A stretch of 64,000 nucleotides of DNA, from positions 186,001 to 250,000 of the IMG/VR virus record IMGVR_UViG_3300028654_000001; one strand, given 5' to 3'. Below are positions 12,805 through 61,118 of the stretch, in pieces. The translations under genes and the position numbers were made by a program. Every line of letters begins with the position of its first letter. The stretch's first letter is position 1. Below the pieces are notes generated by a model. It had not been told where the DNA came from and searched no databases. It saw nothing but the letters and a program-made list of their open reading frames with translations. This stretch comes from a virus.

Positions 12805-13557
12805 ATGCTAATTCTCGGAATAATGGCGATTATACTGGTACTAACCATCTGTGTATCCACCGTTGTTTATTTTCTTGGTAAATACCACAAGGCAAAGGAT
12901 GAGGCTGAGAAACAGAGGTTGAGAGCGGTATCCGCTGAGAATTCTGCTCGAGTGGCTGCTGGACAACGACCGATACCTGGGAGTGGGGTTGATGCTAGTG
13001 AATTAGCAGCTAGGTATAGAACACCTTCCCCACCTGAACCCCCTCCAAACAGAACTGAGTCAGGAAGAGTTTCAACCCGACCAAGGACACGGCCAAGATC
13101 TCGTCAAAGTATGGAGTCCTCTTTCACTGATCTATTCAGTAGCATGAGTGAGCAGATGACCCAAGTCTTTACTGGGGTGTCTCAAGCAGTGAGCGTGGTT
13201 AGTGAGCAAGCTACCCTCTCTGTAGCCATAGCTCGGGATGCTCAATCCCTATTGAATCTTGGGTTTGTTCAAGAAAATATTCAACTTGATCAAAGTCGGA
13301 GGTCTAACTTACAACACCTGAGTCTCATTCCTGGAGTATCCTCTCGAACGGTCACTGCACTACAGAGGCTTGAAACTTCGAATCGTATAGCTGAGCACCT
13401 TAACTGGGGGCGACTAGTAATCCAATTCATGCGTATGATTGACTCTGGTGGGATAACCTTCGAGAACGAGAACAAGGCTCCTGAACCAACTACTGCTAAG
13501 GAACCAGAGCCCGAGAAGCTACCTCCAACAAGGTTTGAGCGCGAGGATGTGATATGA
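12805..13557 (+). CDS. membrane-anchored protein with C-terminal TRFER tag
   Basis: 250 residues. One N-terminal membrane helix (about 3-26), then a charged coiled-coil-like stretch, a Pro/Arg-rich linker, and a helical domain (about 105-215) with FTDLFSSMSEQM and SVVSEQATLSVAIARDAQSLL. It ends LPPTRFEREDVI. TGA overlaps the next ATG (ATGA). First gene of a three-gene set, 12805-14824, all with membrane segments. Function unknown. Confidence 0.75.
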   Translation: MLILGIMAIILVLTICVSTVVYFLGKYHKAKDEAEKQRLRAVSAENSARVAAGQRPIPGSGVDASELAARYRTPSPPEPPPNRTESGRVSTRPRTRPRSRQSMESSFTDLFSSMSEQMTQVFTGVSQAVSVVSEQATLSVAIARDAQSLLNLGFVQENIQLDQSRRSNLQHLSLIPGVSSRTVTALQRLETSNRIAEHLNWGRLVIQFMRMIDSGGITFENENKAPEPTTAKEPEPEKLPPTRFEREDVI

Positions 13558-14603
13558 GACCATTGTTTGATGGATGGGCCTTGCTCGCCTTCCTGTTCTG
13601 GATGGGTTTCTGCTGGCTCCTCTGCGTACGAAGATTGTTCTGGGGTTCCTTGGTAAGGAACTTCATCACAAGTGTCTTCTTTGCAATCTCTGGTATTGCA
13701 CTCCTCTTCCTAGCAACTAGGCCTTGGATTAACACGGCCCACATCCCTCATGGAGTCAACTTTCCGCCCCCGAAGTACAATAGTGAGATCCTAAATCTTG
13801 TAGGATCAATGTGCCTGACTCTATCCCTCGCCATCAGGGTAGTAATTCAACCGATCCCTACGCCATGCCCAAGAGTCTTGGTTTCGGATGAGAACATATC
13901 TCACCTTAGAGGTACTTGGCACATCATTGATGAGGTCAGGGTTCGAGTGGGGGACATCGTAATCCTTATAAATCAGAATCGAGCTGTAGATAACGGAGCT
14001 TGGGAAGTCAGAAAGCCACCCTGGCGCAGACCTCAATCAAATCAGAAGGGCTACCATTCCTTTGGTTCTTGGTTCATTGCTAATTGTGGTAACAAGTATG
14101 CTCATACTCTATGGGTGGGATCATTATGCCGCAATGACATCATCGGTGAGGGTGAACTCGAGTGGAAGCAACTCGATCTAAACAGCAGAATACGAACTTT
14201 CGTGAGCCTCGAGATACCCTGCAGTATTGGTGAGACCGCCAAGTTCCTTCTTCGAGTAGGAGTACTTCCATACCAGATTCGATGCAATCTCCAAGAAGAA
14301 GCAGTTAGGGACCTTTTGCAAGCAGGACACATATCACCAACCTCAGTAGGTATCCTACTGCACAAGCCTGACCCTAATCGGAACTCTACTGAGTGGGGTC
14401 CTCGAGTCAAAGCGGTGATGAGGTTGCTCATTCACTCGGGTGAGTTTGAATACCCCAAGGAAGCCTACGAGAGTGCAGTAACTAATGGGTTCGAGCACCG
14501 TATGACTGAGACTGAGGTGAGGGCTGACTTCGAGGTTCGAGTTAGGAACGAAACCCCAGAACCTCGAACCCCGACTAGGTTCGAAAGAGATGAAGTGATA
14601 TGA
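13554..14603 (+). CDS. multi-spanning membrane protein with C-terminal TRFER tag
   Basis: 349 residues. Three hydrophobic segments within the first about 105 residues (ALLAFLFWMGFCWLL, FITSVFFAISGIALLFL, LVGSMCLTLSLAI). A soluble domain follows with VGDIVILINQNRAVDNGAWEV, a small beta module. It ends PRTPTRFERDEVI, nearly the same tag as the previous protein but in different codons. ATGA overlaps link it to both neighbours. Confidence 0.75.
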   Translation: MRPLFDGWALLAFLFWMGFCWLLCVRRLFWGSLVRNFITSVFFAISGIALLFLATRPWINTAHIPHGVNFPPPKYNSEILNLVGSMCLTLSLAIRVVIQPIPTPCPRVLVSDENISHLRGTWHIIDEVRVRVGDIVILINQNRAVDNGAWEVRKPPWRRPQSNQKGYHSFGSWFIANCGNKYAHTLWVGSLCRNDIIGEGELEWKQLDLNSRIRTFVSLEIPCSIGETAKFLLRVGVLPYQIRCNLQEEAVRDLLQAGHISPTSVGILLHKPDPNRNSTEWGPRVKAVMRLLIHSGEFEYPKEAYESAVTNGFEHRMTETEVRADFEVRVRNETPEPRTPTRFERDEVI

Positions 14604-14824
14604 GAGCCTCGAAGTCTGTACTTCAGGTTATGTTATTCCTGGTCATACTGCTATTGTTGTACTTGGAATTGCAACATGTTATTTTTAGGATCAACAAAAA
14701 GTCTGTAGCTACCACCACGGTACCGACTCCATCATCTGCCAAGGTAGTACCATGCGCTCCAAGTGCTACTGCTGATGTGAGAACCCAACATGAGGATAAA
14801 ACTAGCCTATCAGAAGATACCTGA
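14600..14824 (+). CDS. small single-pass membrane protein
   Basis: 74 residues: one hydrophobic helix (about 8-28, VLQVMLFLVILLLLYLEL) followed by a polar, Thr/Ser/Ala-rich tail. Start overlaps the previous stop. No TRFER tag. Could partner the two upstream membrane proteins. Holin-like size, but with no adjacent endolysin I do not assign that. Confidence 0.65.
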   Translation: MRASKSVLQVMLFLVILLLLYLELQHVIFRINKKSVATTTVPTPSSAKVVPCAPSATADVRTQHEDKTSLSEDT

Positions 14825-15425
14825 TACCCACAACTGCCCGCTCAAGAAATGCATAGCCTTTGAGAAGTACGATGGTACCAACATCCATTGGGTTGCACAG
14901 CCCGAGTGGGGTTGGGTAGACTACGGTACTCGTCGCGATCGATTCCCCTTCAATAACGGTGGAGATCAGAAGTTTGAGGAGGCTCATCCAGAACTATCTG
15001 GGGTTTCTAGGTTGTGGGACCCAGATAGTAAGCTAGAGCATTATTTGAGGGGTAACTACAGCTCTGCCCAAGAGATTGTGGTGTTCACGGAGTACTTTGG
15101 CCCTAACTCGTTTGCTGGGATGCACAAGCCTGGTGACAAAATGCAGCTGGTCATCTTTGATGTCCAGATTGATGGCAACCTTCTCCAACCGGAAGAGTTT
15201 ATCACTGCCTTCAAGGGCTTCAACATCGCTCAGGTTGTCTTCAAGGGCAAGTACTCAGGACAGTTATTTGTTGATGTCCGTAAGGGCAAGTACGGCGTGA
15301 AAGAGGGTGTAGTCGTCAAAGGTGTAGCCGACGGTAATATCTATATGGCCAAAATCAAGACGAACGAGTATCTTGAACGTCTGAAGAGTAAGTTTGGAGA
15401 TTCCTGGCAAGAATATTGGGAGTAG
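14790..15425 (+). CDS. RNA ligase family protein
   Basis: 211 residues. Nucleotidyltransferase motifs: K26-Y-D-G in FEKYDGTNIHW (motif I, adenylated Lys), YGTRRDRFP, EIVVFTEYFGPNSFAG (motif III region), FDVQIDG, KEGVVVKG (motif IV) and MAKIKT (motif V). Size fits a minimal Rnl2-like ligase. Its probable role is sealing nicked RNA such as cleaved tRNA, alongside the CCA enzyme and the 2H protein at 43783. Overlaps 14600-14824 by 35 nt. Confidence 0.88.
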   Translation: MRIKLAYQKIPDTHNCPLKKCIAFEKYDGTNIHWVAQPEWGWVDYGTRRDRFPFNNGGDQKFEEAHPELSGVSRLWDPDSKLEHYLRGNYSSAQEIVVFTEYFGPNSFAGMHKPGDKMQLVIFDVQIDGNLLQPEEFITAFKGFNIAQVVFKGKYSGQLFVDVRKGKYGVKEGVVVKGVADGNIYMAKIKTNEYLERLKSKFGDSWQEYWE

Positions 15426-15428
15426 GTT

Positions 15429-15779: not shown

Positions 15780-16179
15780 TAACACCCTAGATCCGTCCGA
15801 GTTCAGAGATACTTTGGCCGTTCGGTTCGCACTTCCCCAGGAATGGGAGATGGAATCACGCGAGGGTATGGCTAGGTGTGGGGTTCTGTTGCGTGACGAA
15901 GTGAGCTTCCGAAGAAACACTTGGCTTCCGTTTGACATAACGGACATGTTTGAGGCCACTGTGTTCCTTCGTCAGGCTGCCCCAGAGGGGACTGATCGTA
16001 TCCAGTCCTGGGTTTACGAGGTCTACACTTGGTACCAGTCGCGGATGATGATCCCTTGGACGGTTACCTTGATCTACCACCCTGAAGGATGGCACTTCTG
16101 CTTTGGCCCTGCAGGACTCATCCAGGGCTTGAGGGTAATTCTTCCAGACTACATTCCACTATCGGGTCCTCAGACATAA
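15760..16179 (+). CDS. hypothetical protein
   Basis: 139 residues from ATG 15760, chosen for the GGTGTA spacing over a GTG at 15706. Trp-rich alpha/beta sequence (VYEVYTWYQSRMMIPWTV). No known family. Convergent with 16118-16519, overlapping by 62 nt, longer than typical here, so one 3' end may be read less than fully. Confidence 0.6.
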   Translation: MLLRIDDNTLDPSEFRDTLAVRFALPQEWEMESREGMARCGVLLRDEVSFRRNTWLPFDITDMFEATVFLRQAAPEGTDRIQSWVYEVYTWYQSRMMIPWTVTLIYHPEGWHFCFGPAGLIQGLRVILPDYIPLSGPQT

Positions 16180-16519
16180 CTCTCTGGAACCTGGTTTGGA
16201 CCCCACGTCGGCAATAAGCTGAGATTATCATGCTAGACATCTCATCTACGTGAGTTGCTCCGTGAACTTGCTCCATATGCTGAGCAAGTGGGGACCCAAG
16301 CCGGAGTCCCCACTTGTTGCGCAGGTACCTGCCCAAGGTATGGTGAAGCTCGGTCATTGCTGTCTTCTCGTTAGCCACACTGAGAAACAACCGAGTCTCC
16401 TCATTCAGCATACCATCAATTGCTTCAATTGCTTCATCAAGAGTAGTAGGATTAGGGTGCTCAATCCGAGTTGATGCGTGTAATGGGTAATCCTTGAGAG
16501 CCTTGTACTGAGGGATCAT
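16118..16519 (-). CDS. DUF6794-like protein with TRFQR tag variant
   Basis: 133 residues. LDEAIEAIDGMLNEETRLFLSVANEKTAMTELHHTLGRYLRNKWGL followed by DEMSSMIISAYCR matches the phage DUF6794 pattern (E...H..LG..LRN.WGL...DDMS). After it comes VQTRFQRVMSEDP, a variant of the TRFER peptide, then an acidic tail. The family has no known function. Confidence 0.7.
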   Translation of the reverse strand: MIPQYKALKDYPLHASTRIEHPNPTTLDEAIEAIDGMLNEETRLFLSVANEKTAMTELHHTLGRYLRNKWGLRLGSPLAQHMEQVHGATHVDEMSSMIISAYCRRGVQTRFQRVMSEDPIVECSLEELPSSPG

Positions 16520-17539: not shown

Positions 17540-18058
17540 TCATCTGTGTTGAGACTTCATTAGCTTGACGGTAGCATTGAAGGCTACCAACCAAAACTTG
17601 CTTTTACCAGCCCTCTTGGACTTCACAAGTTGAGATTTGTTGAGCTCTACTGGACTCAAGTCAAGAGCTTCTCGTATGCCATCCACTGTAGCATCAAATT
17701 CGGCTAAGCTTTCCGGAGTAGCTTCGTCGCTGACGGTATACTGTTGAAGGGTTGCCGTTGTCTCCAGGTCACCAATAGTTATGAATGTCTTTAGCTTACC
17801 CCCAATTCGATCTGTGGTGATATTAGCCTGACCTCGATAGTCCCCTGTTGCCTTCTTCTCGTCATCTGTACTATGGAGTTGATACTTCAGAGGCGGTACG
17901 TCGAAGTTCAGCTTTGAGAGATCGTACGCAGAGGATAGGTAATCAAAGTCCTCAGACAGCTTAAACTTCATCAACAGCCCATTCTCAATCACAATTCTTT
18001 GAAGTGAAGAGGCGGCGGTAAACCTACGAACGACGCGGGCTATGATTTCGAGATCCAT
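17540..18058 (-). CDS. hypothetical protein with LxxRVxxRF N-terminus
   Basis: 172 residues. The N-terminus DLEIIARVVRRFTAAS matches those of 7911 (DLELVERVKRRFLAH) and 63558 (DLHLIQRVASKWSSK). The rest is beta-rich with a basic C-terminus. No enzyme motif. The shared start suggests a targeting or docking helix. Confidence 0.65.
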   Translation of the reverse strand: MDLEIIARVVRRFTAASSLQRIVIENGLLMKFKLSEDFDYLSSAYDLSKLNFDVPPLKYQLHSTDDEKKATGDYRGQANITTDRIGGKLKTFITIGDLETTATLQQYTVSDEATPESLAEFDATVDGIREALDLSPVELNKSQLVKSKRAGKSKFWLVAFNATVKLMKSQHR

Positions 18059-18547: not shown

Positions 18548-18925
18548 ATGAAGCCGGGTGAGGTAATCGCAGAAGGTCTACTCGGCTTCTATGCCTGTGC
18601 TGTCCTCAACGATCTCGAGAAGATGGTGGTCTTACCCTCTGTTGTACTCGAGTCCGTCAAGGACAACTCAGGGGTAACCCCCGAATGGCCCCTTGGGGTC
18701 TATGTCCTGTTCACTGAGGATGGGGTCCTTCTTGGAATACACGGTAAGAACAAAGAGGGGGAGATACTCGACAGGTATAGTTTCTTTGACCTCGACGAGG
18801 ACACAATCCCGGATCTTGGTGAAGATATCTGGAACCTGTGGAAGGTCCTTCGTGAGGCCTCTGATGAGTTGGTCGAGGCCAACTATCAGGCTTTACTGAA
18901 GCAGACTCTGGAGTCTGAAAATTGA
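18548..18925 (+). CDS. hypothetical acidic protein
   Basis: 125 residues from ATG 18548 (MKPGEVIAEGLLGF). The frame is open upstream but runs antisense through 18110-18430. Acidic alpha/beta protein with no known family. TGA overlaps the next ATG, starting a run of four rightward genes to 20082, three of them with TRFER tags. Confidence 0.6.
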   Translation: MKPGEVIAEGLLGFYACAVLNDLEKMVVLPSVVLESVKDNSGVTPEWPLGVYVLFTEDGVLLGIHGKNKEGEILDRYSFFDLDEDTIPDLGEDIWNLWKVLREASDELVEANYQALLKQTLESEN

Positions 18926-19392
18926 TGCTTACAGTAGCTGACGTCATACCGACTGCAGAGGTTGGACAGTATTGGGTACATACCTTTCCCCTGTACATGT
19001 TTCGAGTTATAGCCGTTGATGTACAACAGTGGCAGTTCACCCTTGTCACTTGGATTGTCGGAGGGGTCCCTGAAGAGGATAGTTACTATATCGGGTATGA
19101 TACTTTTAAGGGATGCCGTAGACTTCACAACTCTGTAGTAATTGATCCCCATGCACTTAGCCTCAAGGAGATCCCTCGAACTGGAGACATTTTAGTTTTC
19201 CCAAGTGGGGAGTTGGTTTTCGTGGTTACCGATGGATCCCTAGTAACCCTGTACCATGATGGGGTTGTACCCAAAGACCCAGCTGTACTTTCCAAGCTTA
19301 AGCTATTTCAACGTGGCCCAGTCGACCCGAACCTAAAACCCACAACCAGATTCGAACGAGTGTTAGGTGATCATGCCCTTGACCCAGACTGA
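18922..19392 (+). CDS. beta-rich protein with C-terminal TRFER tag
   Basis: 156 residues made of short beta modules: VGQYWVHTFPLYMFRVIAVD and TGDILVFPSGELVFVVTDGSLVTLY. It ends TTRFERVLGDHALDPD. It resembles the adjacent 19373-19840 protein in layout (two modules, linker, tag). ATGA overlap with the previous gene. Function unknown. Confidence 0.7.
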   Translation: MMLTVADVIPTAEVGQYWVHTFPLYMFRVIAVDVQQWQFTLVTWIVGGVPEEDSYYIGYDTFKGCRRLHNSVVIDPHALSLKEIPRTGDILVFPSGELVFVVTDGSLVTLYHDGVVPKDPAVLSKLKLFQRGPVDPNLKPTTRFERVLGDHALDPD

Positions 19393-19840
19393 TATATTCC
19401 CGGTGATGCAACCCGATCAGTGGTGGGCTCAAACCAGAACCCTTGGATTAGTACATATCTTGGCCATAGATCAACAGGTTGGCCCAGAGAGATGCTTTGA
19501 AATGGAGGTTTGGGCACCTGATGAACTACCTGGGAATAAGTGGCATTGGAATCGGGGACTTGGGCCTCCAAATGAATCACTCCTCTGGTTCAGGTCCAAG
19601 GTGGATGTCAAGCATCCAATTGAAAAGTATAGGATTGGAACGGTCTACATTTCAGCGGTGAACCACCAGCTATTCTTCTTAGCTATCATCCACGGAGAGG
19701 TTTGGATACTCGCCGATTGGGAGGTTACGGACACAGATCTTCAGAAGTCCTATGTGTTTCAACCAGCCCAGAAGGATCCAACTGAGTTGCATGACACTAG
19801 GTTGGAAAGGGTTCTGAACGAGGAGCACTCACCGACTTGA
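19373..19840 (+). CDS. beta-rich protein with C-terminal TRLER tag
   Basis: 155 residues from ATG 19373 (GTG 19367 is an alternative). Modules PDQWWAQTRTLGLVHILAID and YRIGTVYISAVNHQLFFLAIIHGEVWIL parallel those of the preceding protein; it ends DTRLERVLNEEHSPT. The tag has Leu in place of Phe. Likely a diverged tandem duplicate of 18922-19392. Confidence 0.7.
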   Translation: MPLTQTDIFPVMQPDQWWAQTRTLGLVHILAIDQQVGPERCFEMEVWAPDELPGNKWHWNRGLGPPNESLLWFRSKVDVKHPIEKYRIGTVYISAVNHQLFFLAIIHGEVWILADWEVTDTDLQKSYVFQPAQKDPTELHDTRLERVLNEEHSPT

Positions 19841-20082
19841 CACCTGTAGTTATAAGTGGTACTGCCACCTACATGGATATACCCCAAAGAGGCGTTCACC
19901 ACCTTCTCCACACGCTGTGGACAAAAGCCGTAGGTACTGAGAATTACAACAAGAATGAGTGGAAGCAGCTGGCTGCTTACCTGTATGCTCTTATGGCCGA
20001 CCCTATGGCTTCCCAGAATATCATTGAAGTCGACAGGATACTTCAACCACCGACGCGGTTCGAGCGGGAGCCGGTGATCTAA
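19837..20082 (+). CDS. small protein with C-terminal TRFER tag
   Basis: 81 residues from a TTG at 19837 that overlaps the previous TGA. It ends QPPTRFEREPVI, the same nine-residue form as four other proteins. A short helical body (NEWKQLAAYLYALMAD) lies between. If the TTG is wrong, the next start is ATG 19873. Confidence 0.6.
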   Translation: MTPVVISGTATYMDIPQRGVHHLLHTLWTKAVGTENYNKNEWKQLAAYLYALMADPMASQNIIEVDRILQPPTRFEREPVI

Positions 20083-24443: not shown

Positions 24444-24746
24444 TTAGGAGTTATTGATCCGATCAAACCGAGTAGGTGGCTTATCCGTATACATAGTGGA
24501 CTGCGTGGTCCTTGCCACGTCTACGGAGGGTGGCTCTTCCTCCTCAACCTCTTCCTCCTCCACCTCAGGTTCCACTTGGTTGATGATCATAGGTTGTTGC
24601 GCAAAATTTGCGAGTAAGGCTTTCCACCCAAGAAGAATGTGGTTGGAGATAGTAGCTAGCAGATTGTAGGTAGATCCAATAACAACAATCACTATAAATG
24701 TAGCTAATCCTGGGTTGGCATGAACCCATATCCAGACCTGACTCAT
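24444..24746 (-). CDS. single-pass membrane protein with C-terminal TRFDR tag
   Basis: 100 residues from ATG 24746 (longer GTG start at 24767 possible). One membrane helix (PGLATFIVIVVIGSTYNLLATI), then an acidic linker (VEPEVEEEEVEEEEPP), ending KPPTRFDRINNS. The acidic linker followed by the tag resembles the arrangement in 12805-13557. Confidence 0.65.
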   Translation of the reverse strand: MSQVWIWVHANPGLATFIVIVVIGSTYNLLATISNHILLGWKALLANFAQQPMIINQVEPEVEEEEVEEEEPPSVDVARTTQSTMYTDKPPTRFDRINNS

Positions 24747-24777
24747 CACGGGGACAGTATACCCCAATTTGGGTATC

Positions 24778-24806: not shown

Positions 24807-26780
24807 ATGGATAAGATTGAACTTAGAAAAGTAGGGGACTTAGTTCCGCACCCATTCAATTTGAAGTACTTCTTGGAACCATCAGCTGATCCAAGCTTCT
24901 TGGCAATTCGAGAGTCCATTGCAAGGGAAGGAATTCAAGAGCCGCTTATAATCAAGGCTGATGGGACCATCCTCTCAGGTAACCTACGGTATGCAGGGTT
25001 AGTTTGGTCTCTCGCTGAAAAGTTTAAGAATGCTCCTAATATCAAGAAGCTCGTTAATGAGTCTCTGGTTCCAATTAGGATACACGCTGAATTTGCCAGT
25101 GAAGCTGATGAGGTTCTCTATCTTATCAGGTCAAACTTGGATCGACGCCAATTCACTCAGGAGCGAAAAGCAGCCATCTGGGACTTGTGGAGAAGCGAGT
25201 ATGAATCCCTAACTAAGAGGAAGCCTGGGCGACCAAAGGCTGATGCTCCAAAGGTTGAGAGCCCAAAGGATGTAGCTGCAAAGCTAGGGATCACAGTAAA
25301 GTCTGCTGATGCTCTAGTCGTTGTCAAGAACAGTCCGCTTGTTCCTCAATCGATCCGAATGAGGGTGTTCAATGAAAAGATTTCAGCAAACATCGTAGCT
25401 AAAGCTGTTGCATTCGCCGAAGAGGAAGCCGCTAGAGAACAGAGGGATCCTGTTCAAGTTGATGTGCTTAGGTATCTAGAGAACCCGCCTCCCAAGAAAT
25501 TCTCAGATACCCTTCAAGAGACCATCTCCAAACCTACTCCTGAAAAGCCTACTGTAGTCAAACCCGTCATTGAGAAACCTACTGAAAAGCCTACTGTAGT
25601 CAAGAAAGCTATCCCTGTAGAACCCGCTCCTATCCCTGACCCTGAACCTTCCTTCGAAGACGTTCTGGTTCAAGTAGAGGAACCCCAGGTATCTACTGTA
25701 GAGGTTGTTGAAACCTCCCCTGACGAGTCAGAGATTGCTGCCTCTGTACCTCCTGCCGTCGAGACTGACGAGCCCTCAGTTAGCGAGCCTGAATTACCTG
25801 AGTACTACCCAGCAACAGATGAGATTGACGAATCCGAGCTATTGTTCGACGCTGGGTTAGACCCCACTGATCCTTCTGGAAGCGGAACCCCAGATCCGCT
25901 TCAGTTACCAGAGACCCCCGGGTTTATAGATCTCCACACTGAGTACCCCATCAGTGAGATCAAAATCGATAACAACCCGGAGAAGCTGGAATCTTGGAAA
26001 GAAGCCTTCCTCAGAGACCAGCTAGCTCCAGCGAATACCCCGGAGCCCTCCAACTACGACAAGGCTATCGAAGTTCTAACCGAGCAGGCCGTTGAGAATC
26101 GTGTGGCCAGCGCTAGGAAGATCATCGAAGCCTTGCTTGGGGAAGTCATTCTCAATGAGAACATTACTGGCAATCTTGTAGGGCTCCACAAGAGCCTGGA
26201 TACCTTCCTTAAAGATATTGGAGCCATCTCCAACGTAGCACCAGCCGAGCAGAACCCCTACCTCTCTGGCTTGCCAACGGACATCAAAGGGCAACTCCTT
26301 CTAAGCCAGTCCTTCGTCAGTGGCATCACCGAGGTGGATGATCCAGAGGAGACTCGAGACTTACTATTGAACATTATTCAAGATGCCAAAGTCTCCGTCA
26401 ACAACCTGACCAACTCCAAACGCTCCCTTGAGCCCAATGGGTTGTTCTGTGTGGATTGTCTAGCACCTCAATTCAAGACAATTCACGGAGATGTCTGTGA
26501 GAACGGTCATGGTGGAGCCCCTGGGATCACAGATGCCCAGATGCAGCAGGAGAAAGCTAAGAGACAAGCTAAGAGTGAGCCTCCTAAAGTGACCCCTGTC
26601 GAAGATATTGACTTCGACAATATTGACTTGAGCGATGACCCCGTACCCACCTCCTCAGATCTGAAAGAATCAGATCTGGACGATCTTGCAACAAGCATCC
26701 TGTCATCACACCCACCGAAGGGGGACCCTGTGGTAGATATCCTTGAAGAATTCTCGGATGTACTTGGCGGATTGGTGTAG
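24807..26780 (+). CDS. ParB-like protein with long disordered region
   Basis: 657 residues. The N-terminal 75 match a ParB/Srx-type nuclease or CTPase fold (VGDLVPHPFN, GIQEPLIIKADGTILSGNLRYAG). A helical region with LDRRQFTQERKAAIWDLW and a helix-turn-helix-like stretch (VAAKLGITVKSADALVVV) follows. Residues about 225-390 are Pro/Glu-rich and repetitive (EKPTVVKP and EKPTVVKK). The C-terminal third is helical with a zinc-ribbon-like CVDCLAP...CENGH near 560. Might bind phage or host DNA. Lies directly before an AAA ATPase. Confidence 0.75.
   Translation: MDKIELRKVGDLVPHPFNLKYFLEPSADPSFLAIRESIAREGIQEPLIIKADGTILSGNLRYAGLVWSLAEKFKNAPNIKKLVNESLVPIRIHAEFASEADEVLYLIRSNLDRRQFTQERKAAIWDLWRSEYESLTKRKPGRPKADAPKVESPKDVAAKLGITVKSADALVVVKNSPLVPQSIRMRVFNEKISANIVAKAVAFAEEEAAREQRDPVQVDVLRYLENPPPKKFSDTLQETISKPTPEKPTVVKPVIEKPTEKPTVVKKAIPVEPAPIPDPEPSFEDVLVQVEEPQVSTVEVVETSPDESEIAASVPPAVETDEPSVSEPELPEYYPATDEIDESELLFDAGLDPTDPSGSGTPDPLQLPETPGFIDLHTEYPISEIKIDNNPEKLESWKEAFLRDQLAPANTPEPSNYDKAIEVLTEQAVENRVASARKIIEALLGEVILNENITGNLVGLHKSLDTFLKDIGAISNVAPAEQNPYLSGLPTDIKGQLLLSQSFVSGITEVDDPEETRDLLLNIIQDAKVSVNNLTNSKRSLEPNGLFCVDCLAPQFKTIHGDVCENGHGGAPGITDAQMQQEKAKRQAKSEPPKVTPVEDIDFDNIDLSDDPVPTSSDLKESDLDDLATSILSSHPPKGDPVVDILEEFSDVLGGLV
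26774..26779 (+). promoter_or_regulatory. GGTGTA over a stop codon, longer spacing
   Basis: Plus strand, 24 nt before the ATG at 26804; may simply encode the final Val-stop of the ParB-like protein. Confidence 0.2.
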
Positions 26781-38290: not shown

Positions 38291-38302
38291 TTTGGCTCAC
38301 TA

Positions 38303-39638: not shown

Positions 39639-39653
39639 GTGTTCACTGCCATT

Positions 39654-46087: not shown

Positions 46088-46382
46088 TAAGCCTCTGACT
46101 GAACGTGACTATGAGGTCCTTGGTGAACTCGTGCATCAGTCCAAGGACGGTGAGTGGTTGCGCCCAATGGATGTAGGTGGTTTTGACGGATCTCACCACT
46201 CAGCTACCCTGAACAATCTTGTCAGCCACGGTATGGCTGAACTAACGTGGTTCGGAAAACCTTGGCAGCCTCGCTTACACAAAAGGTACAGGGTAACCAA
46301 AAATGGAGAAGCTCTGTACCAAGAGTACAAGTTGAAGAAGCAAGCGGCTAGATCAGATCCTCTTCATCTAGTAAAGCGTTGA
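46080..46382 (+). CDS. winged-helix-like small protein
   Basis: 100 residues from GTG 46080, overlapping coaD by 8 nt. LTERDYEVLGELVHQSKDGEWLRPMDVGG...HSATLNNLVSHGMAELTW...RYRVTKNGEALYQEY has the layout of a winged HTH of the MarR/PadR type. May be a transcription factor, or a shortened regulatory domain. Convergent with 46348. Confidence 0.65.
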   Translation: MGNKPLTERDYEVLGELVHQSKDGEWLRPMDVGGFDGSHHSATLNNLVSHGMAELTWFGKPWQPRLHKRYRVTKNGEALYQEYKLKKQAARSDPLHLVKR

Positions 46383-53138: not shown

Positions 53139-54278
53139 TTAGGAAGCGGTCTTGTACCGCTTCCCCTCTCGGATATCGGTTGAGCTGATATCAAAGTCAC
53201 ATTGAAGTCTATGACACCTGAGGTTTGGTGGACAGGGAAAGTCCATCAAGGTCTTCATAACCCCGTCCAATCGACGGTCAGCTATAGTCAGACCTGTACA
53301 AGTTTCTGTGAAGATCTTGGCCTGCTCCTCGATAGTGATCCCCCATCGTTTAGCATCAAAAAGAGTTTCTAAGCTATCGGCACCCAAGAGGATCTCTATT
53401 CCAGGGAGATGTTTTGCCTTGTCCACATAGTAAGGGGCGCCCCAAGTTATGTAGACATTCCTACCCTGCAGCATCTTGGCTCGCTTGAGGATGTCCCAAG
53501 GCTTGAGAGGATTCTTGTGCGGGGGCTCGGCTTCCAGGGTGAAGGCAACAGGGCCTCCTACCTGGTCAATGTACCCGTCAGCCAGACCAAAGTGCCCAAA
53601 GTGTGGTGGGTTGAAAGATCCCGGAAGCAAGGCCCCGCGCCTCCGATACTCATCCTTGGGAAACTCCAGGAGTCTCTTGCCTGTACTCGAGAAGTAAGGT
53701 CGGCGACGAAGTCGTTCTTCAGACAGGACTTCAGCCCTACCATTGCGGAACTCTTCGATGCACCCCTCAGGTAGGTCTAGGCCAGTGATGAAAGTATTGG
53801 TGGCATCCTTGATGGAACTGATCAGGAGAGCGTTACAGATCTGACCGTCCAGGTGCCTTCTTTCGGCTCCAACTCCCTTAACCAGCTTGACATAGGTCAA
53901 GGTAGCTTTGTACTCTTGGAAGGTTGCCACGAAGATTCGGTGGTCTCCCTTATGGGCTGTAGTGCTCGCTGTGACCGCACAGACTCCGATCCCAATAGCT
54001 GGGGCCCCTTCATATTGGTACGCTCTGTAGAAGGCATCCATAGCGAAGTCCATGGCCGTCCCTTCGTTGGCATAACCGTCTGGAGAGAACCCAAGAAAGT
54101 TGTCAATGTCCTCCTTGGCATACGGCATATGACAACCAACTAGTACATCTGAGACCCCCGGTACATCCCAAATGTGACCAAAAGTCCCGGCACCCGCCAT
54201 ACCGGCAATGCAGAGCCGTACTTTCTTGGTTGGAAGGAAGTCTACTGAATCAAGTGATTGTAGTTGGGGTAGTGGCAT
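53139..54278 (-). CDS. nadD: CinA/PncC-like domain fused to NMN adenylyltransferase
   Basis: 379 residues. Residues 1-170 resemble the CinA/PncC nicotinamide-mononucleotide deamidase fold (IAGMAGAGTFGHIWDVPGVSDVLVGCHMPY; AIGIGVCAVTAS; KGDHRIFVATF). From about 216, GSFNPPHFGH (HxGH), LLGADSLETLFDAKRW and ISSTDIREGKR (S-S-T-x-x-R) are clear NadD/NMNAT motifs. It would make NAD or its deamido form. Same neighbourhood as NAMPT at 58054 and NrtR-like Nudix at 59452. Confidence 0.85.
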   Translation of the reverse strand: MPLPQLQSLDSVDFLPTKKVRLCIAGMAGAGTFGHIWDVPGVSDVLVGCHMPYAKEDIDNFLGFSPDGYANEGTAMDFAMDAFYRAYQYEGAPAIGIGVCAVTASTTAHKGDHRIFVATFQEYKATLTYVKLVKGVGAERRHLDGQICNALLISSIKDATNTFITGLDLPEGCIEEFRNGRAEVLSEERLRRRPYFSSTGKRLLEFPKDEYRRRGALLPGSFNPPHFGHFGLADGYIDQVGGPVAFTLEAEPPHKNPLKPWDILKRAKMLQGRNVYITWGAPYYVDKAKHLPGIEILLGADSLETLFDAKRWGITIEEQAKIFTETCTGLTIADRRLDGVMKTLMDFPCPPNLRCHRLQCDFDISSTDIREGKRYKTAS

Positions 54279-54282: not shown

Positions 54283-55326
54283 TCAGCTTCCTGCTGCTAC
54301 GAGTTTAGGTTCAGCATTCTTCCTCAAAAGACTGCAAAAAGAACCTGGTACCTCAAATGGCCTGAAGGTAGGCTTCCCGACGAGGCTCTTGAGCAGGTTG
54401 TCAAAAGCCTCGTGAACATCATCTGCCTTGGAGGGCCTCATTCTTCTCTCTGGGTTCAGACAGATCTTGAGTAGGTTTTGGATCTCTCGGGGTACCGCAT
54501 CAGGCATCTCGTTGGTTTTAACGTCTCCGCCGAGAATAGCAACCATACACTTGACGGCCATATAGATGTCGGTCGCTTCCGAAGCTTCCTTTTTTTCTGG
54601 TACCTCAGGCGGGTAGTAGTCAGCATACCTAGTGATGAGTACGCGAATTCTGGTCATACCAGAGTAGATTGAATCAGCGGGATCAGGCTCGCCAACGGGT
54701 CTACTCCCATGAGGAGTGTCCTCTAGTGCCCGCTCTCTAGTAGAGGCCGAGTAGCACCAATCGATGAGCTTGGCGCCGTGGTTCTGACCAAACAACAGGA
54801 TGTGAGGGGGGAGAACTGCCCCATGCAGGAAACCATTCTTGTGCGCCCACCATAGGCCAACCAGGGTTCTCTTGAACATCCAAGCCATGTCCCGATAGTC
54901 AATCCCTTTTGGGTAGGCTCTAAGAACATCATCAATGGTGAAGTAGTCGGGTATCAATGAAAGGATGTTCCCCCTCTGTCCCCGAGAGTCAAACCCTCCG
55001 TAGCTAGTTGGATAGTAGAGGTTGAACTTGGACCAATCCGGATCCGTTGATGTTAGTCCATTCAGGACTTGGCTCTCCCTGATCAATAAATCGTTGTTAC
55101 TTGGATCCGAGCAGATCCTAACGATGACCGGAACCTCAACCACATCATCATCGTCATCCTCTAGAATGTGATCAAAGCGAGTCCGAGGCCCTGCGTGCTT
55201 GACAGGAGTTTTTGGAGCTGGGTTCTCATCCTTGTAAGTCCCCTGGTAAAGGTTGCAGAGATCACCCTCCATCAACCGAGCCCCAAACGTCACGCTCTTC
55301 TTGTCACCAAGAGCTAGCGTCGGCAT
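54283..55326 (-). CDS. protein-kinase-like pseudokinase with TRFDH motif
   Basis: 347 residues. WWAHKNGFLHGAVLPPHILLFG (about 155-176) is the HRD-loop region, but the Asp of HRD/KxxN is lost (HGAVLPPH); KLIDWCYSAST replaces DFG with DWC; the C-lobe helices and ATDIYMAVKCMVAIL are kept. The N-lobe contains RTRFDHILEDDDDDVVEV (about 48-65). Probably catalytically dead or much altered. Overlaps the start of purA by 13 nt. Confidence 0.72.
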   Translation of the reverse strand: MPTLALGDKKSVTFGARLMEGDLCNLYQGTYKDENPAPKTPVKHAGPRTRFDHILEDDDDDVVEVPVIVRICSDPSNNDLLIRESQVLNGLTSTDPDWSKFNLYYPTSYGGFDSRGQRGNILSLIPDYFTIDDVLRAYPKGIDYRDMAWMFKRTLVGLWWAHKNGFLHGAVLPPHILLFGQNHGAKLIDWCYSASTRERALEDTPHGSRPVGEPDPADSIYSGMTRIRVLITRYADYYPPEVPEKKEASEATDIYMAVKCMVAILGGDVKTNEMPDAVPREIQNLLKICLNPERRMRPSKADDVHEAFDNLLKSLVGKPTFRPFEVPGSFCSLLRKNAEPKLVAAGS

Positions 55327-56693
55327 GTTAGTTCTTTGTCATCAGCGGTTGACCCATACGAGAAAATAGTGACAGGAGCTCTCATAGTTTTAGTTATTCC
55401 AGATATTAGACGATCTGTATTCTTAAGGGTAGTGAAAACTGGCTCAGCATAGATATCTAAGAAGTGAGAGTAGGGGATCCCATCCTTATCGAAGTACTTT
55501 TTGAGGTATTGGTAGGCTTCCCAAGTATTTGCGTCGAGGAGTATCTTGTAGAAAGGCTTGGTCGAACAGTCGTACCGTAAGCAGACTTTTTGTGGGCCGT
55601 GGATGTGGTCGAGGTGATTGAGGGCTATCTCATCCAACCCACCAAGAACTTCGCGGGCGTATCTGGCCATAACGAAGTCGTAGTAACCTACCCGGAAGGC
55701 ACCTTGCCACTCTCCTTGAGTGTTATGCTCTACTAATCTGGCATCTGGGTCCTCCGATGGGAAGGGTCCAGTCCCGTGCCGCGTAAGATAGGTTCGAGTA
55801 ACCCACATCCTGGTCACCTTTCCAGAGAACCCCTTGAGTAGTTCTAGGGCGTTGTGGAAAGTGCAGTTGCTCCAAGTAGAGTGAGGGTGGAACCCGTACT
55901 CCTCGTCCAGAAGTACTCCTTGAGCCCCCTCGAATAGGGTGACCCCTGATTCGAGAGCCTTGGTTAGGTAGTCTTGGTTGACTACCCTGACCCCTGCCTT
56001 GTCGATTAGGTGGTAGTAGTTCTCCATGAAGTACTCGACCAAAGTTCTGTCCCTGAGCATGTCATATTCGAACATGAGCCTTCGAGTCATATCCACGGAT
56101 AACTCAACGGGTAGGTCGTCCAAAAGGGGGGTCGTCTCCTCCAACTTTCTCTGACGAATAACTTCAAGTTTGTCCTTGATGACTGATGGCTTTCGGAAGT
56201 CCCTCATCCGAATAGCACCCTCCGGATCTTGTATTGAGTCTGAGACAGTTTCCCCAATACCCATGCCACATGACCCGTGGCGCCCAAACCCAACACTCTT
56301 ACAGGTAAAGAGAGCCTCTCGGTGCAGCTCTCGAAGGCGGTTAGTCGCCATGTGGAAAGGAGTGGTGACTAGGGCCATCTCATCAATGGCCAACCTTTGG
56401 TAGGCGTCGGTCACCCCAAGAGTTTCAAGGTGCTCCTCTTCGTATTGGAGAAGAAGCGGGTTCACCACCATGTAACGGCTAAGGTAAGTCTCCGCGCCGG
56501 CAAGAGTACCCGAACTAAACTGGGAAAAACAATGAGTTTTACCGTCTCTTAGGACTACATGATGGGCAGCTTGAGCACCACCATTAAAACGAACTACAGT
56601 GTGAGACCCCTCCCTACGAGTAAGGTAGTCTACTACACTACCCTTCCCTTCGTCCCCAAACCCCAATCCAACAACGATCCATACCTTAGCCAT
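55314..56693 (-). CDS. purA: adenylosuccinate synthetase-like enzyme
   Basis: Couples IMP and aspartate in AMP synthesis. 459 residues. GLGFGDEGKGSVVDYLTR (9-26) keeps the catalytic Asp of GDEGKG, and GMGIGETVSDS, LFEGAQGVLLDEEYG and VTRTYLTRHGTGPFP follow PurA motifs. But NNAGHT is replaced by GGAQAAHHVV, so substrate may differ. A PurZ role (2-aminoadenine) is less likely because the Asp is intact, but it cannot be excluded. Leftward gene, followed by the pseudokinase. Confidence 0.82.
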   Translation of the reverse strand: MAKVWIVVGLGFGDEGKGSVVDYLTRREGSHTVVRFNGGAQAAHHVVLRDGKTHCFSQFSSGTLAGAETYLSRYMVVNPLLLQYEEEHLETLGVTDAYQRLAIDEMALVTTPFHMATNRLRELHREALFTCKSVGFGRHGSCGMGIGETVSDSIQDPEGAIRMRDFRKPSVIKDKLEVIRQRKLEETTPLLDDLPVELSVDMTRRLMFEYDMLRDRTLVEYFMENYYHLIDKAGVRVVNQDYLTKALESGVTLFEGAQGVLLDEEYGFHPHSTWSNCTFHNALELLKGFSGKVTRMWVTRTYLTRHGTGPFPSEDPDARLVEHNTQGEWQGAFRVGYYDFVMARYAREVLGGLDEIALNHLDHIHGPQKVCLRYDCSTKPFYKILLDANTWEAYQYLKKYFDKDGIPYSHFLDIYAEPVFTTLKNTDRLISGITKTMRAPVTIFSYGSTADDKELTCRR

Positions 56694-57800: not shown

Positions 57801-58046
57801 CTAATCTTCATCGTCTCTAAGAATCCGATCGAACCGAGTACTCCCAAGAAGCGTTGTACTCGGTTTACTAGACACCGATGGCACTTCATCGGTGTCTAGA
57901 ATTCGATCGAATCGAGTTGGTCGAGAAGTACTTTGGGTATCTGGTACTTGACTCCGAATAGGCTCTACACCCGCTTGACTTTTAGGCTCTTGTTTTCTAC
58001 GAGACATAAGAGTGTAGAAGTCATCTGTCCAAAAACCGCCGCCCAT
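57801..58046 (-). CDS. small protein with two TRFDR tags and MGGG N-terminus
   Basis: 81 residues, almost entirely disordered. MGGGFWTDDFYTLMS at the N-terminus (as in the vWA protein), then SRPTRFDRILDTDEV and, ending the protein, GSTRFDRILRDDED. It looks like a bare adaptor linking the MGGG partner to two tag-binding sites. Most informative small gene of the tag family. Confidence 0.75.
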   Translation of the reverse strand: MGGGFWTDDFYTLMSRRKQEPKSQAGVEPIRSQVPDTQSTSRPTRFDRILDTDEVPSVSSKPSTTLLGSTRFDRILRDDED

Positions 58047-58053
58047 AAGCCTC

Positions 58054-59442
58054 TTAGACCCGTGAAAGATTCTTCTCTGAATTCTTTCGAACTTCTGAGA
58101 ACTTCATGTCACGTATGAGCTTGCCGTTTTCGAAGACAACCTGAAGCACGTCTGACTTGGTTGACCCAGCTGGAACCGACTTGAACTCCCCACCTTCCAT
58201 AATGAGGCTCAGTCGCCCCGACTTTGAAACCTTGCCTGGATCAGTAACAGGATCTTTGAACACGGGCACGGTTGCCCCTGTATCAGTTGTGATCTCCGAG
58301 CACTTCAGAGCCCACTTCTGGGTATCGCGATCCAACTGCTGAAGTAAGCCGCCGCCCATACCGAAGGCAATGTTCGAGGTTGAGTACTTGTGAGCCGTTA
58401 TTGTGGCAAGGATCTCACGAAGTGAGTCAATGTTGATGCCGTCACCTTGAATGAGCTTGAAGTAGGGGGGAAGAACCTTGAACCCACGCATGTTCCTGGT
58501 CATCCCAAGCTTGTTCTCAAGTGTCTGTAGGCACCGAAGAACCATTGCGGGTGGATCCCCTGAATCAGGTCGGATCACCAAGCAACCACCAGAATTCTTT
58601 ACCTGATCAAGGAGCTCTCCGCACCACATGTTCTCGATAACATTGAAGATATCGTAACTATCCGACACACAGGCAACGACCTTGTCCTTTTTCAGGAACT
58701 GAGTGATCATGTTGCGGTAGGCGAGGAGCTCTCGTTCACGGCCCCACGAAGTAATGCTCGAATGCTCAGCCGCTGGGATTGAGAATCCGGCCATGGGCTC
58801 ACCATAGAAAGCCCTAGCAAACATGATCCCTTCGAGGGTATCGGTACCCCTGAAGTTCACGAGATGGCTCATACCTCCGATGCCAGCCGATTCATGTGAG
58901 CTGACCCCTCGGGCTCCGAAGTCGTGCAGCTTGAAGTAGATCTCGGCCCAAGGATCGTTGGCTGTCTCCAATAGGTGCTCGAGAATGACTCGCTTGCAGT
59001 AGTAGGACTGGGTGGCCACCGTACTCGGGTACCATGTGCGAACAATCTGAGCTTCTAACCAACTGGCTGCCCAGAAGGTATCAGCGCCGCCGGTGCTCTC
59101 CAATGATAGGACAATGTTCCGGGTTGGAACCTCCAGACCCTCAGGCACCGCCTTGATCCTCACAGGCCAGTACCCACCGTTGGCCACTATTTTCCCAAAA
59201 CCTTCTGCATTGAATGGCTCCCCATGAGCCTCCAGAACCTCCTTGGCTTCGACAACATCCGCGTCCGTGATGGGTGTCGTAAGGTATTCCTTGATCAGGT
59301 ACTGCAGTCCAAAGAAAATTGTAGATCCGAACTTACCACCCCGTGACTCCATGTAATCGTACATCCCAGTGGTGCTCGGTGGGTAAGTCAGCCAATGGGC
59401 TGACTTATAACTGTCTGTATTTAATATTGGATTGAATCTCAT
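58054..59442 (-). CDS. nadV: nicotinamide phosphoribosyltransferase
   Basis: Joins nicotinamide and PRPP to NMN. 462 residues. FKLHDFGARGVSSHES, SIPAAEHSSITSWG, CLVIRPDSGDPP, IQGDGINI and NIAFGMGGGLLQQLDRDTQKWALK are the catalytic and substrate residues of NAMPT. Complete. With the NMNAT at 53139 it forms a two-step NAD salvage path from nicotinamide, a set that some phages use to rebuild NAD under host defence. GAGGAC precedes the ATG. Confidence 0.93.
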   Translation of the reverse strand: MRFNPILNTDSYKSAHWLTYPPSTTGMYDYMESRGGKFGSTIFFGLQYLIKEYLTTPITDADVVEAKEVLEAHGEPFNAEGFGKIVANGGYWPVRIKAVPEGLEVPTRNIVLSLESTGGADTFWAASWLEAQIVRTWYPSTVATQSYYCKRVILEHLLETANDPWAEIYFKLHDFGARGVSSHESAGIGGMSHLVNFRGTDTLEGIMFARAFYGEPMAGFSIPAAEHSSITSWGRERELLAYRNMITQFLKKDKVVACVSDSYDIFNVIENMWCGELLDQVKNSGGCLVIRPDSGDPPAMVLRCLQTLENKLGMTRNMRGFKVLPPYFKLIQGDGINIDSLREILATITAHKYSTSNIAFGMGGGLLQQLDRDTQKWALKCSEITTDTGATVPVFKDPVTDPGKVSKSGRLSLIMEGGEFKSVPAGSTKSDVLQVVFENGKLIRDMKFSEVRKNSEKNLSRV

Positions 59443-59451
59443 CTTGTCCTC

Positions 59452-60183
59452 TCATAACTCGAAGTTAAAACCGCTTTGAACTGCTTTATCGTACTTCTTC
59501 TGGTCAAATCTGTAAAGTTGGGCAGGCCTGCCTAGTTTAGGATGGATTGCACCACCGACCCCAACTAGGATGCCCATGAGGATAATTCGGCGTCTGAAGT
59601 TACCCTTATCAAGCTTCTTCTGAAGGATCGCTTCGTATAACTGTTGCAACTGCCCGAGAGTGAACGTCGTCGGTAGCAGGTTGAAACCTATTGGAGCGTA
59701 TCTGATCTTCCCTTGAAGTCGGTTAAGGGCTAACTCTAGGATCTTCTTGTGATCAAAAGCCAACTTCATTCGACTCAGCTTATTAACTGAAGTCCAGACA
59801 GCCAGGTCTGCATCGTCCCCGCCGACGATATCTTCGTAGTCGGTTTTTCTAACCAAGGCGAAGTAAGCAACTGAGATGACTCTCCCGCGTGGATCACGAA
59901 ATGGATCTCCAAAGGTATAGAGTTGTTCCAGATACTCGAAACGGGCTCCGGTCTCCTCTTCTACCTCGCGTACAACAGCTGCTTCTAAGCTCTCATTACC
60001 CCCAATGTTGACGTAACCCCCTGGAAGTGCCCAGTGATGTTTGAAAGGGTCCCTAGCCCGTCGAATTAGAAGAACCTTGAGTGGGTTGTCCTCGTCACTT
60101 GGATCAAAGCCGAATACAATTCCATCTACGGTAAGGGCTGACATCGGCCAATCGTAAACGAACCTCTTCTTTTCTTTGGTCAC
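59452..60183 (-). CDS. NrtR-like Nudix protein with winged helix
   Basis: 243 residues from GTG 60183. Nudix box GGYVNIGGNESLEAAVVREVEEETG (about 56-80) has the REVEEETG core. The C-terminal region TFTLGQLQQLYEAILQKKLDKGNFRRRII...GRPAQLYRF is the winged helix of NrtR-type regulators. NrtR senses ADP-ribose or NAD and represses NAD salvage genes. Next to NAMPT, this fits a local regulator or a phosphohydrolase of ADP-ribose. Confidence 0.86.
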   Translation of the reverse strand: MTKEKKRFVYDWPMSALTVDGIVFGFDPSDEDNPLKVLLIRRARDPFKHHWALPGGYVNIGGNESLEAAVVREVEEETGARFEYLEQLYTFGDPFRDPRGRVISVAYFALVRKTDYEDIVGGDDADLAVWTSVNKLSRMKLAFDHKKILELALNRLQGKIRYAPIGFNLLPTTFTLGQLQQLYEAILQKKLDKGNFRRRIILMGILVGVGGAIHPKLGRPAQLYRFDQKKYDKAVQSGFNFEL

Positions 60184-60524
60184 TTGTCAATCCCCAGAAA
60201 CTTCTTAGTAATTGATGCAGCCTCAACCATTGGAATCTTTCTGTGTGAAACGGTTCTGTTGAGCTTTGGCCTGAAGTACACGATGCAGGCCATCTCTAGC
60301 AGGTCTAAGTCAGCCTCTGGGTCAACTCTTCGTATGAAGATCTGATCGAATTCCTTTGACTTATGCCTGACTATAGCTGAATGAACGCTAATTGATTGAC
60401 CTATATACATCAACTCCCCTAATAGGAATAGAAAATAAATCACAGAGGTTCTATACACCTCGACTTCTTCAAGGAGTTTTGCCTCAACCTCCTCGGTTAC
60501 TACCTTCCGTATGATCTTGGCCAT
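60180..60524 (-). CDS. GIY-YIG-like nuclease domain protein
   Basis: 114 residues. VIYFLFLLGELMYIGQSISVHSAIVRHKSKEFDQIFIRRV...LEMACIVYFRPKLNR fits the GIY-YIG pattern (Y-F-L...YIG-Q-S...R..H..K.FD......E...I..F.P.LN), with Gly-Tyr spacing altered. Might nick DNA or RNA. Overlaps the Nudix gene by 4 nt. Confidence 0.65.
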   Translation of the reverse strand: MAKIIRKVVTEEVEAKLLEEVEVYRTSVIYFLFLLGELMYIGQSISVHSAIVRHKSKEFDQIFIRRVDPEADLDLLEMACIVYFRPKLNRTVSHRKIPMVEAASITKKFLGIDK

Positions 60525-60640
60525 CCGTGGTCGGATACTTATAGTAGAAGTGACAATAAGTCAAGGTAGAAAAGAATATTTCTGTAACCAGTTGTAATCA
60601 TTACGGTTAACCAAATGACTCTCACATTTTTGACATACTT

Positions 60641-60646
60641 GGTGTA
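60641..60646 (+). promoter_or_regulatory. GGTGTA element
   Basis: Plus strand, 10 nt before the ATG at 60657. Confidence 0.5.
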
Positions 60647-60656
60647 AAGGTGCCAA

Positions 60657-61118
60657 ATGCCAGTGCAAAGGCGAGGGCGTGCGGTTGACTTTGTAAAGGA
60701 AATCCTGAACCACGAGCACAGAGACTGGGTTCGATCCGATGACCCAAGCACTTCCAGTTGGGGCTTCGAGTGTCGGATTTGCAAATCCCGCTACCTAATA
60801 GCCATCGAAGCCTTCCGATACCAAGGGGGCGACCGCTACTCGAATGCTCTCCGAGATTGTGCAATGGATCCGAGAAAGGATCCATTGGAGACAGTTCTTG
60901 GGTTCGATTGTATCGCCTGTCATACGACTGAGGGCGTCAAACTGGAACCTTCAAGAACTCAATATGGTACAACGTATCCTCGAACGAGGTTCGAACGAAT
61001 ACTTGACCCTGAGCCAGAAGATCCTAACATCGACATCCCTCTCTGCCGAAGTTGCGCAGAGGATCATCATTCGTACTGGGATGAAATGTGGCAGATGGTT
61101 CGATATGATCAGATGTGA
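60657..61118 (+). CDS. zinc-binding protein with internal TRFER motif
   Basis: 153 residues. FECRICKSRYL, FDCIACHTTEG and PLCRSCAEDHH form Cys clusters likely to bind zinc. Between the second and third lies YPRTRFERILDPEPEDPNID (about 107-126), an internal tag followed by acidic residues. Function unknown. Confidence 0.7.
   Translation: MPVQRRGRAVDFVKEILNHEHRDWVRSDDPSTSSWGFECRICKSRYLIAIEAFRYQGGDRYSNALRDCAMDPRKDPLETVLGFDCIACHTTEGVKLEPSRTQYGTTYPRTRFERILDPEPEDPNIDIPLCRSCAEDHHSYWDEMWQMVRYDQM

Follow-up and report, generated by a model that had tools for sequence, protein, structure and literature searches.

Encapsulin cargo peptides are C-terminal and load cargo into an HK97-fold shell, and as a rule an encapsulin takes up a single cargo or a few. 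The family has been treated elsewhere (PMC8346489). In phage T4, the proteins gp43, gp55 and gp33 bear C-terminal epitopes, both hydrophobic and acidic, that bind the DNA sliding clamp (PMC2988020), and a ~10-residue address, the capsid-targeting sequence (CTS), stands on dissimilar, poorly conserved small internal head proteins and brings them into one structure (PMC9026906). In chimalliviruses many proteins are sorted by the phage-coded PicA import system, whose recognition rules differ between species and which recognizes cargo through surface residues, not through a terminal signal (PMC12908238). Here we analyze a short peptide with the core TRFER, which recurs at the C-termini of proteins encoded in a 64,000-base window (bases 186001–250000 of the 512,571-base IMG/VR phage record IMGVR_UViG_3300028654_000001, here G000) and elsewhere in the same phage. 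This tag resembles a protein address label, since it is common to mostly unrelated proteins and has drifted versions in related viruses, and it is probably a C-terminal docking peptide that is used across the lineage and read by a shared partner coevolving with it.

About 378 kb of G000 were read in stretches, together with stretches of about 20 related records, and genes were called with our own codon-usage script, which gave 472 genes and 97,497 amino acids in G000. A C-terminal tag of the type (P)[TS]R[FL][EDQ]R was found on 67 proteins, about one in seven of those sampled, with a median length of 131 amino acids. The string TRFER occurs 31 times against a mean of 0.07 in shuffled proteins, and 28 of the 31 copies lie within the last 20 residues; the reversed proteins of the 472 genes contain none. 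The strict regular expression put forward in an earlier, sequence-only reading of the window matched 35 times in these genes against 0.19 after shuffling, where a frequency no higher than in shuffled sequences would have refuted that reading, and across the whole record the TRFER DNA pattern matched 50 times and the reversed pattern not at all. Shuffles, reversed proteins and the reversed DNA pattern together rule out a chance origin. Four to nine residues follow the final Arg in 61 of the 67 tags, most copies being strictly C-terminal. Among 64 strict tagged proteins the core positions are occupied by Pro (42), Thr (60, with Ser in 4), Arg (64), Phe (57, with Leu in 7), Glu (55, with Asp in 6) and Arg (64), and the core is followed by I/V-L-x-D/E or by x-D/E-V-I at the stop. 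The complete tag would read (P)-[TS]-R-[FL]-[ED]-R-[IV]-L-x-[DE], or (P)TRFER-x-[DE]-V-I ending at the stop.

Once the tags are removed, blastp sorts the 64 strict tagged proteins into at least 51 sequence families, seven of which are multi-member, the largest being a zinc-type family of five proteins. The sequence-only reading had described the hosts of the motif as unlike each other; at genome scale some of them prove to be paralogues. On the G000 map the tags are dense in 1–140 kb, 166–250 kb and 287–289 kb and none occurs in those structural and replication stretches that were covered between 340 and 450 kb. No promoter common to the tagged genes was found in the only 13 usable upstream regions. 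The hexamer GGTGTA (CGGTGTAC), a possible phage promoter element, stands upstream of untagged, non-structural G000 genes in 37 regions against 4.6 expected. A search of the open literature found no paper on the TRFER peptide. As for its structure, T-x-x-E matches a helix capping box, and AlphaFold2 gave low-confidence models of two tagged proteins, with predicted local distance difference test (pLDDT) values of 44 and 42, the tag being a short helix that begins after the Thr in one low-confidence model and coil in the other. We picture the tag as a Pro-capped short segment carried on a variable linker and probably helical, with T/S-x-x-E/D as its capping box.

Codon choice varies freely between the tag copies of the 64 strict tagged proteins. 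Much of the window is co-linear with two related records, G013 (71 kb) and G017 (11 kb), whose orthologues are mostly 45–90% identical to the window proteins. Over 18 orthologue pairs the identity is 89% in the five core tag residues, 44% in the 16 residues that precede them and 59% in the protein bodies; among the 90 tag codons compared, 29 are unchanged, 51 carry synonymous changes and 10 carry changes of residue. The peptide itself is thus the target of selection, given the tag identity of 89% against 44% in the linker and the 51 synonymously changed codons. The sequence-only reading had held that the peptide and not the DNA is conserved, which these codons support, and it had named loss of the motif in orthologues as grounds for abandoning the idea; instead the tag persists where the linker has diverged. 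The same comparisons bear on another explanation, in which duplication, or a mobile cassette of DNA at the ends of genes, would have spread the tag, and the peptide as such would have no function. Some tagged proteins are indeed paralogous (the seven multi-member families among the 51), and the captured capsid pieces described below show that gene shuffling occurs. However, the codons are scrambled between copies, the tag outlives the linker in orthologues, and it is present across phages of 48–65% guanine plus cytosine (GC). Codon diversity between copies and in orthologues rules out a DNA-level repeat, and the codon and orthologue tests already disfavor the duplication or cassette explanation as a whole, which we regard as extremely improbable. 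Four G013 proteins and two G014 proteins are tagged and have no recognizable G000 relative apart from the tag.

All motif positions named in the sequence-only reading were located in the window. On the plus strand, gene 12805–13557, with one predicted transmembrane (TM) segment by simple hydropathy, from which all TM counts derive, ends in PTRFEREDVI (13525–13554), retained as PTRFERDPVI in its G013 orthologue (L095:10476-11306). The adjoining gene 13554–14603, with three predicted TM segments, ends in PTRFERDEVI (14571–14600), and its G013 orthologue in PTRFERDAVV, with a linker identity of 1/16. The minus-strand gene 16118–16519 (DUF6794, E = 6e-19) has QTRFQR near its C-terminus (16121–16198), also retained in the G013 orthologue. 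Three plus-strand genes carry C-terminal tags close together: 18922–19392 with TTRFERVLGDHALDPD (19342–19389), 19367–19840 with DTRLERVLNEEHSPT (core DTRLER, 19793–19837; TRLER in the orthologue) and 19837–20082 with PTRFEREPVI (20050–20079; PTRFQRDEVV in the orthologue). The minus-strand gene 24444–24767 ends in PTRFDRINNS (24447–24476), as does its orthologue, at a linker identity of 3/16. Gene 32669–33076 (plus) ends in PTRFERADVI (33044–33073; orthologue PSRFERADVI), gene 34848–35597 (plus), which has relatives with local tag forms, in RTRFERILMDDD (35559–35594), and gene 35590–35931 (plus) in ETRLHRVLREGVI (core ETRLHR, 35890–35928; orthologue TRFHRILWDEVI). On the minus strand, gene 36294–36680 and its orthologue both end in PTRFEREDVI (36297–36326), with a linker identity of 2/16.

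The C-terminal tag of gene 36714–37754 (plus), RTRFERILDDTDELYPL at 37701–37751, is eroded to PIRFTRILEDEWYPL in the G013 orthologue. An N-terminal placement is seen in the minus-strand gene 37751–38290, whose protein begins MPEMTRFDH...TSRFDR, with MTRFDH at 38264–38281 (LTRFDH in the orthologue) and TSRFDR at 38210–38227 (SRFER in the G013 orthologue). Three plus-strand genes again carry the tag at the C-terminus, namely 38264–38734 (ATRLERIAFNMVE, core ATRLER, 38693–38731; orthologue PTRFERIAFNMVK), 38736–39611 (PSRFERDIGI, 39579–39608; orthologue PTRFERDIGI) and 41735–42670 (KTRLERAAADDEDED, core KTRLER, 42623–42667; orthologue KTRLERISEDTEED), as does the minus-strand gene 46348–46842 (PTRFDRINALLDEEDLI, 46351–46401; orthologue LTRFDRINALLEDD). 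Internal copies are PTRFER in gene 41143–41718 (41503–41520, plus), RTRFDH(ILEDDDDD), RTRFDHILEDDDDD, in the kinase-like gene 54283–55326 (55168–55185, minus), for which the G017 orthologue has KTRFDHILEDDD, and RTRFER in gene 60657–61118 (60981–60998, plus), conserved in G017 at L102:8138-8602. The minus-strand open reading frame (ORF) 57801–58046 has two copies, PTRFDR (57903–57920) and the C-terminal STRFDR (57825–57842), and its G017 counterpart (L102:5308-5511) has PTRFERILNED.

G000 codes for a terminase, a portal protein, a head maturation protease and a major capsid protein (L018:3571-4440; phrog_2522, E = 3e-52; Pfam Phage_capsid, E = 1.7e-6). The capsid protein shares 39% identity with its counterpart in cultured phage G and 84% with the one in LR745208, an uncultured phage of 485 kb; no DNA similar to G000 was found in an annotated phage collection. 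The panel of relatives was picked through capsid similarity among large IMG/VR contigs, and in over 40 huge-phage loci so picked the major capsid protein shows 91–99% identity. Searches of the C-termini of these relatives either presupposed no motif or used widened patterns. Huge phages whose major capsid proteins are 92–98% identical bear the tag in drifted forms, first [TS]RF[DE]R and then T-x-W-[DE]-[HQR]-L. Of 143 genes sampled in G042 (435 kb, 65% GC), 24 end in PRFDREEVI, PTRFEREDPV and the like, where shuffling gave 0.48, and weaker sets of the [TS]RF[DE]R form were found in G023 and G027. G053 and G062 have TAWDHL, TIWDHLLKD and SLWERLGEDE, with 7 W-type endings in G053 and 5 in G062, each against 0.04 after shuffling; sparser W-type-like ends occur in G059, G063, G040, G050 and G051, and G054 has a possible SLFD type (SLFDLAMSGELDD, TDLFDNL). 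Since the dialect patterns were widened after inspection of the data, the W-type counts (5–7 per phage against 0.04–0.5) weigh less than those of TRFER and VMES. The VMES type belongs to the more distant G010 (terminase 45% and capsid protein 78% identical), where [VIL]M[ED][ST] stands directly before the stop in 23 called genes, with 0.04 expected, and [VI]xx[VI]ME[ST] ends about 38 small ORFs at the stop in the 393-kb record (L078-L081, L125-L131); neither TRFER nor W-type forms were found in the G010 C-termini sampled. Judged from these sequences, the general shape of the tag is [ST]-x-[FW]-[DE]-x-[LI] followed by acidic residues, to which the VMES type may be unrelated.

No strong tag was found in the sampled parts of G009, LR745208, cultured phage G and Tunturi_5; because the relatives were covered in sampled stretches and several records are possibly fragments, absence of a tag or gene from them is weak evidence. 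Among 84,980 bacterial and archaeal genomes, the EDVI-type tag had no match and the IL-type tag nine single matches, three of them in ORFs and all of these at least 26 residues from the end, and no genome held a comparable tag set. A TRFER in G002 and G004 was set aside as a chance match within a zinc-ribbon protein, and pattern matches in L107-L110, G016 and bacterial contigs were not C-terminal tags.

It is quite likely that one partner reads the tag. Dozens of unrelated accessory proteins of one huge-phage lineage would then bear it, and the common partner would change with the phage lineage. A candidate receptor in the window is an AAA ATPase with a long acidic tail, encoded amid tagged genes (39639–40838, plus; Pfam AAA, 7.9e-14). 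It has homologues in seven tag-bearing phages; the family was not found in G023, G053, G062 and G010, which also bear tags, and its co-occurrence with the tag is too imperfect for us to retain it as the reader. An ATPase of this class also figures in an account of the tag as a degron or unfolding handle, by which a phage or host AAA+ ATPase would remove early accessory proteins, or the partners bound to them, on schedule. C-terminal degrons are a known class, so the placement of the tag suits this account, and the phage has several AAA ATPases, the acidic-tailed one lying in the middle of a tagged cluster. On the other hand, that ATPase family was not found in the four tag-bearing records just named, the two-Arg acidic motif is to our knowledge unlike known ssrA or ClpX tags, and no proteasome/HslV-type peptidase (PF00227) was found in 25 records, a search that a host protease would escape. 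The proteasome-linked version was dropped on this last result as far as a phage-coded peptidase goes, and we consider a degron unlikely overall, although an AAA+ unfoldase, like the sliding clamp discussed below, is still in contention.

The papain-like cysteine protease encoded at 29548–30561 adjoins a homing endonuclease and is about the most conserved window protein in the comparison with G013. A role for it in processing or reading the tag drew on its 91–95% identity between the window and G013, on its homologues in 14 of the 23 records searched, G010 included, and on its absence from the tag-less G009, LR745208, phage G and Tunturi_5. On this basis the protease-free G059 and G063 were predicted to be tag-less, yet both bear W-type tags, although these records are possibly fragments. 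After this failed prediction the protease was dropped as the reader, and such a role now seems very improbable.

In anatomy, the closest analogy to the tag is the C-terminal clamp-binding epitope of T4, which is likewise short, C-terminal, hydrophobic and acidic, interchangeable, and placed on unrelated proteins behind a divergent unstructured linker (PMC2988020). Extreme C-terminal placement holds for 61 of the 67 tags, and the divergent linker is mirrored in the 44% against 89% identity given above. By this analogy the tag might bind the phage DNA sliding clamp and recruit dozens of proteins to replicating DNA. One tagged protein is RecA/UvsX-like (L016:8766-9425), a weak DnaN-like protein is encoded at L022:759-2000 (E = 0.006), and we take the G054 dialect to resemble T4-type epitopes. 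The likeness has limits, as three T4 proteins compare with 67 tagged ones in a single phage and the tag core combines two Arg with a T/S-x-x-E/D pattern. Moreover, the polymerase does not carry the local dialect at its C-terminus, where 14 relatives share a different conserved ending; the look-alike VNLFKVLMDD of G000 is part of that ending and was rejected as a model of the tag. Membrane-spanning and capsid-mosaic proteins would also be unexpected clients, and recruitment to the clamp is, in our judgment, improbable.

The capsid-mosaic proteins contain rearranged pieces of the major capsid protein. Tagged gene 34848–35597 includes a homologue of capsid residues 1–62 (35145–35330, plus; blastp 48% over 62 amino acids, E ~1e-16) and matches the phrog_2522 major head protein (E = 2e-9). 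In tagged gene 36714–37754 the segments are permuted, with homologues of residues 245–289 (37347–37478, plus; 56% over 45 amino acids) ahead of those of 85–136 (37473–37616, plus; 48% over 52 amino acids; phrog_2522, E = 3.8e-8); terminase-like bits in this gene are at noise level. Pieces of other core proteins, terminase and the like, were sought in tagged proteins, and convincing cases were limited to the capsid protein and a single RecA-like match. Capsid-piece proteins of seven phages end in the local tag: G000 (RTRFERILMDDD), G013 (RTRFQRILDDDD), G042 (PSRFDRVLEMAA), G050 (DYFDRLLDEDLF and NVWQRLMEEEDLF, on two proteins), G051 (TWHERLLIESLLID), G059 (SWWEYLDESF) and G010 (MVLYVMES). As the ends follow the form of each phage, capsid-piece proteins go with the local tag and not with one fixed sequence. 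The end of the G062 capsid-piece protein is not in the local form, and the local tag is missing on proteins that have only a capsid A-domain piece or a piece right at the C-terminus. Proteins of 79–125 amino acids in other huge phages (L375, L378, L381 and L385) have a capsid segment (~residues 31–62, RKTFLVExLPDG...) as their C-terminus. Host sensing of capsid protein is known in other phages, and the permuted pieces in tagged proteins of several phages might be decoys or poisons against host capsid sensors, satellites or rival phages, gathered by the tag. Such a function would cover only a handful of tagged proteins, and we think it unlikely.

Because rearranged capsid pieces recur in tagged proteins, our best guess, a weakly supported and tentative one, is that the partner is a variable head-assembly component such as a scaffold, core or protease-scaffold, and that tagged accessory proteins would travel on the head or inside it as it grows. 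Identity falls from a median of 93.8% in the capsid protein (at loci chosen for capsid similarity) to 69% in the portal, 49% in the protease and 48% in a neighboring head protein. One of the variable head proteins may be the reader. Several points weigh against this explanation. No receptor or hub for the tag was identified; the capsid protein cannot simply be the reader, being nearly invariant while the tag changes; tagged proteins with 1–3 predicted TM segments exist and are hard to place inside a head; and recognizable capsid pieces occur in only a handful of tagged proteins. In addition, a second motif, approximately L-x-L-R-V-A-x-R-[YF], lies within the first 20 residues of a topoisomerase IB-like protein and other proteins (L018:14860-15906, L018:18512-18904, L019:734-1924, L019:10564-11433, L019:12437-13207, L010:2318-3595 and window 17540–18058). 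RVAxR[YF] occurs N-terminally 16 times in G000 against 3.0 after shuffling and also in G010, G054 and G062, and as a possible capsid-targeting propeptide it fits better than the tag. The sequence-only reading had proposed a docking or sorting signal recognized by a phage-coded hub, with a virion core among the examples. Its docking part is supported by the conserved peptide, the unrelated hosts, retention in orthologues and drift between lineages, and the hub is a hypothetical element; for a virion core, the capsid pieces in tagged proteins of seven phages stand against the TM proteins, the RVAxR[YF] motif and the invariant capsid protein.

The T4 CTS is, like the tag, a short address common to several otherwise dissimilar proteins (PMC9026906), but it stands at the N-terminus and the prohead protease cleaves it off, whereas the tag, known from genes alone, is C-terminal in nearly all copies; the N-terminal RVAxR[YF] motif is closer to the CTS than the tag is. 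Encapsulin cargo peptides share the C-terminal position, but no encapsulin shell was seen here, with no search aimed at one, and the capsid protein of these phages varies too little for it to have coevolved with the dialects. PicA import is similar in being phage-coded and species-specific in recognition (PMC12908238), though its cargo is read by surface residues and not, as here, by a terminal peptide. The RNA polymerase beta-prime family PF04998, which stands for the PhiKZ-type multisubunit polymerase that marks these nucleus-forming phages, had no match in G000, G010, G042, G053 and G062 with controls positive in 14 of 14 cases, a search that a divergent subunit could escape.

Other features of the phage were observed alongside. 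DNA polymerase (L016:15843-19988) has a ~420-residue insertion (residues ~688–1106) absent from relatives, possibly an intein. The window codes for a PurZ-like adenylosuccinate synthetase (2-aminoadenine DNA) and an NAD salvage set of NAMPT, an NrtR-like NUDIX regulator and a cytidylyltransferase (55314–56693, 58054–59442, 59452–60183 and 53139–54278). ParB-like proteins are encoded at window 24807–26780, at L010:18073-18924 and in G013 at L094:5144-6328 and L096:3675-5222; those of the window, L010 and G013 L096 share the C-terminal ending DPVxDILxEFxxVL.

The majority of small huge-phage genes lack an assigned function, and a single peptide now links at least 51 unrelated families of them within one phage. 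It may be, though we would not count on it, that more than one tenth of the sampled proteins are sorted to one phage-made site, such as a compartment, the growing head or a scaffold, that label and reader coevolve into dialects (TRFER, TxW[DE]HL, VMES), and that new or captured genes, capsid pieces included, join by gaining the local label. The tag is a direct handle for fishing out its reader. If confirmed, it would be a short terminal address label that a phage employs on a vast scale, in contrast to import by surface residues in nucleus-forming phages, and host-takeover cargo, compartments and head loading would become testable in these phages.

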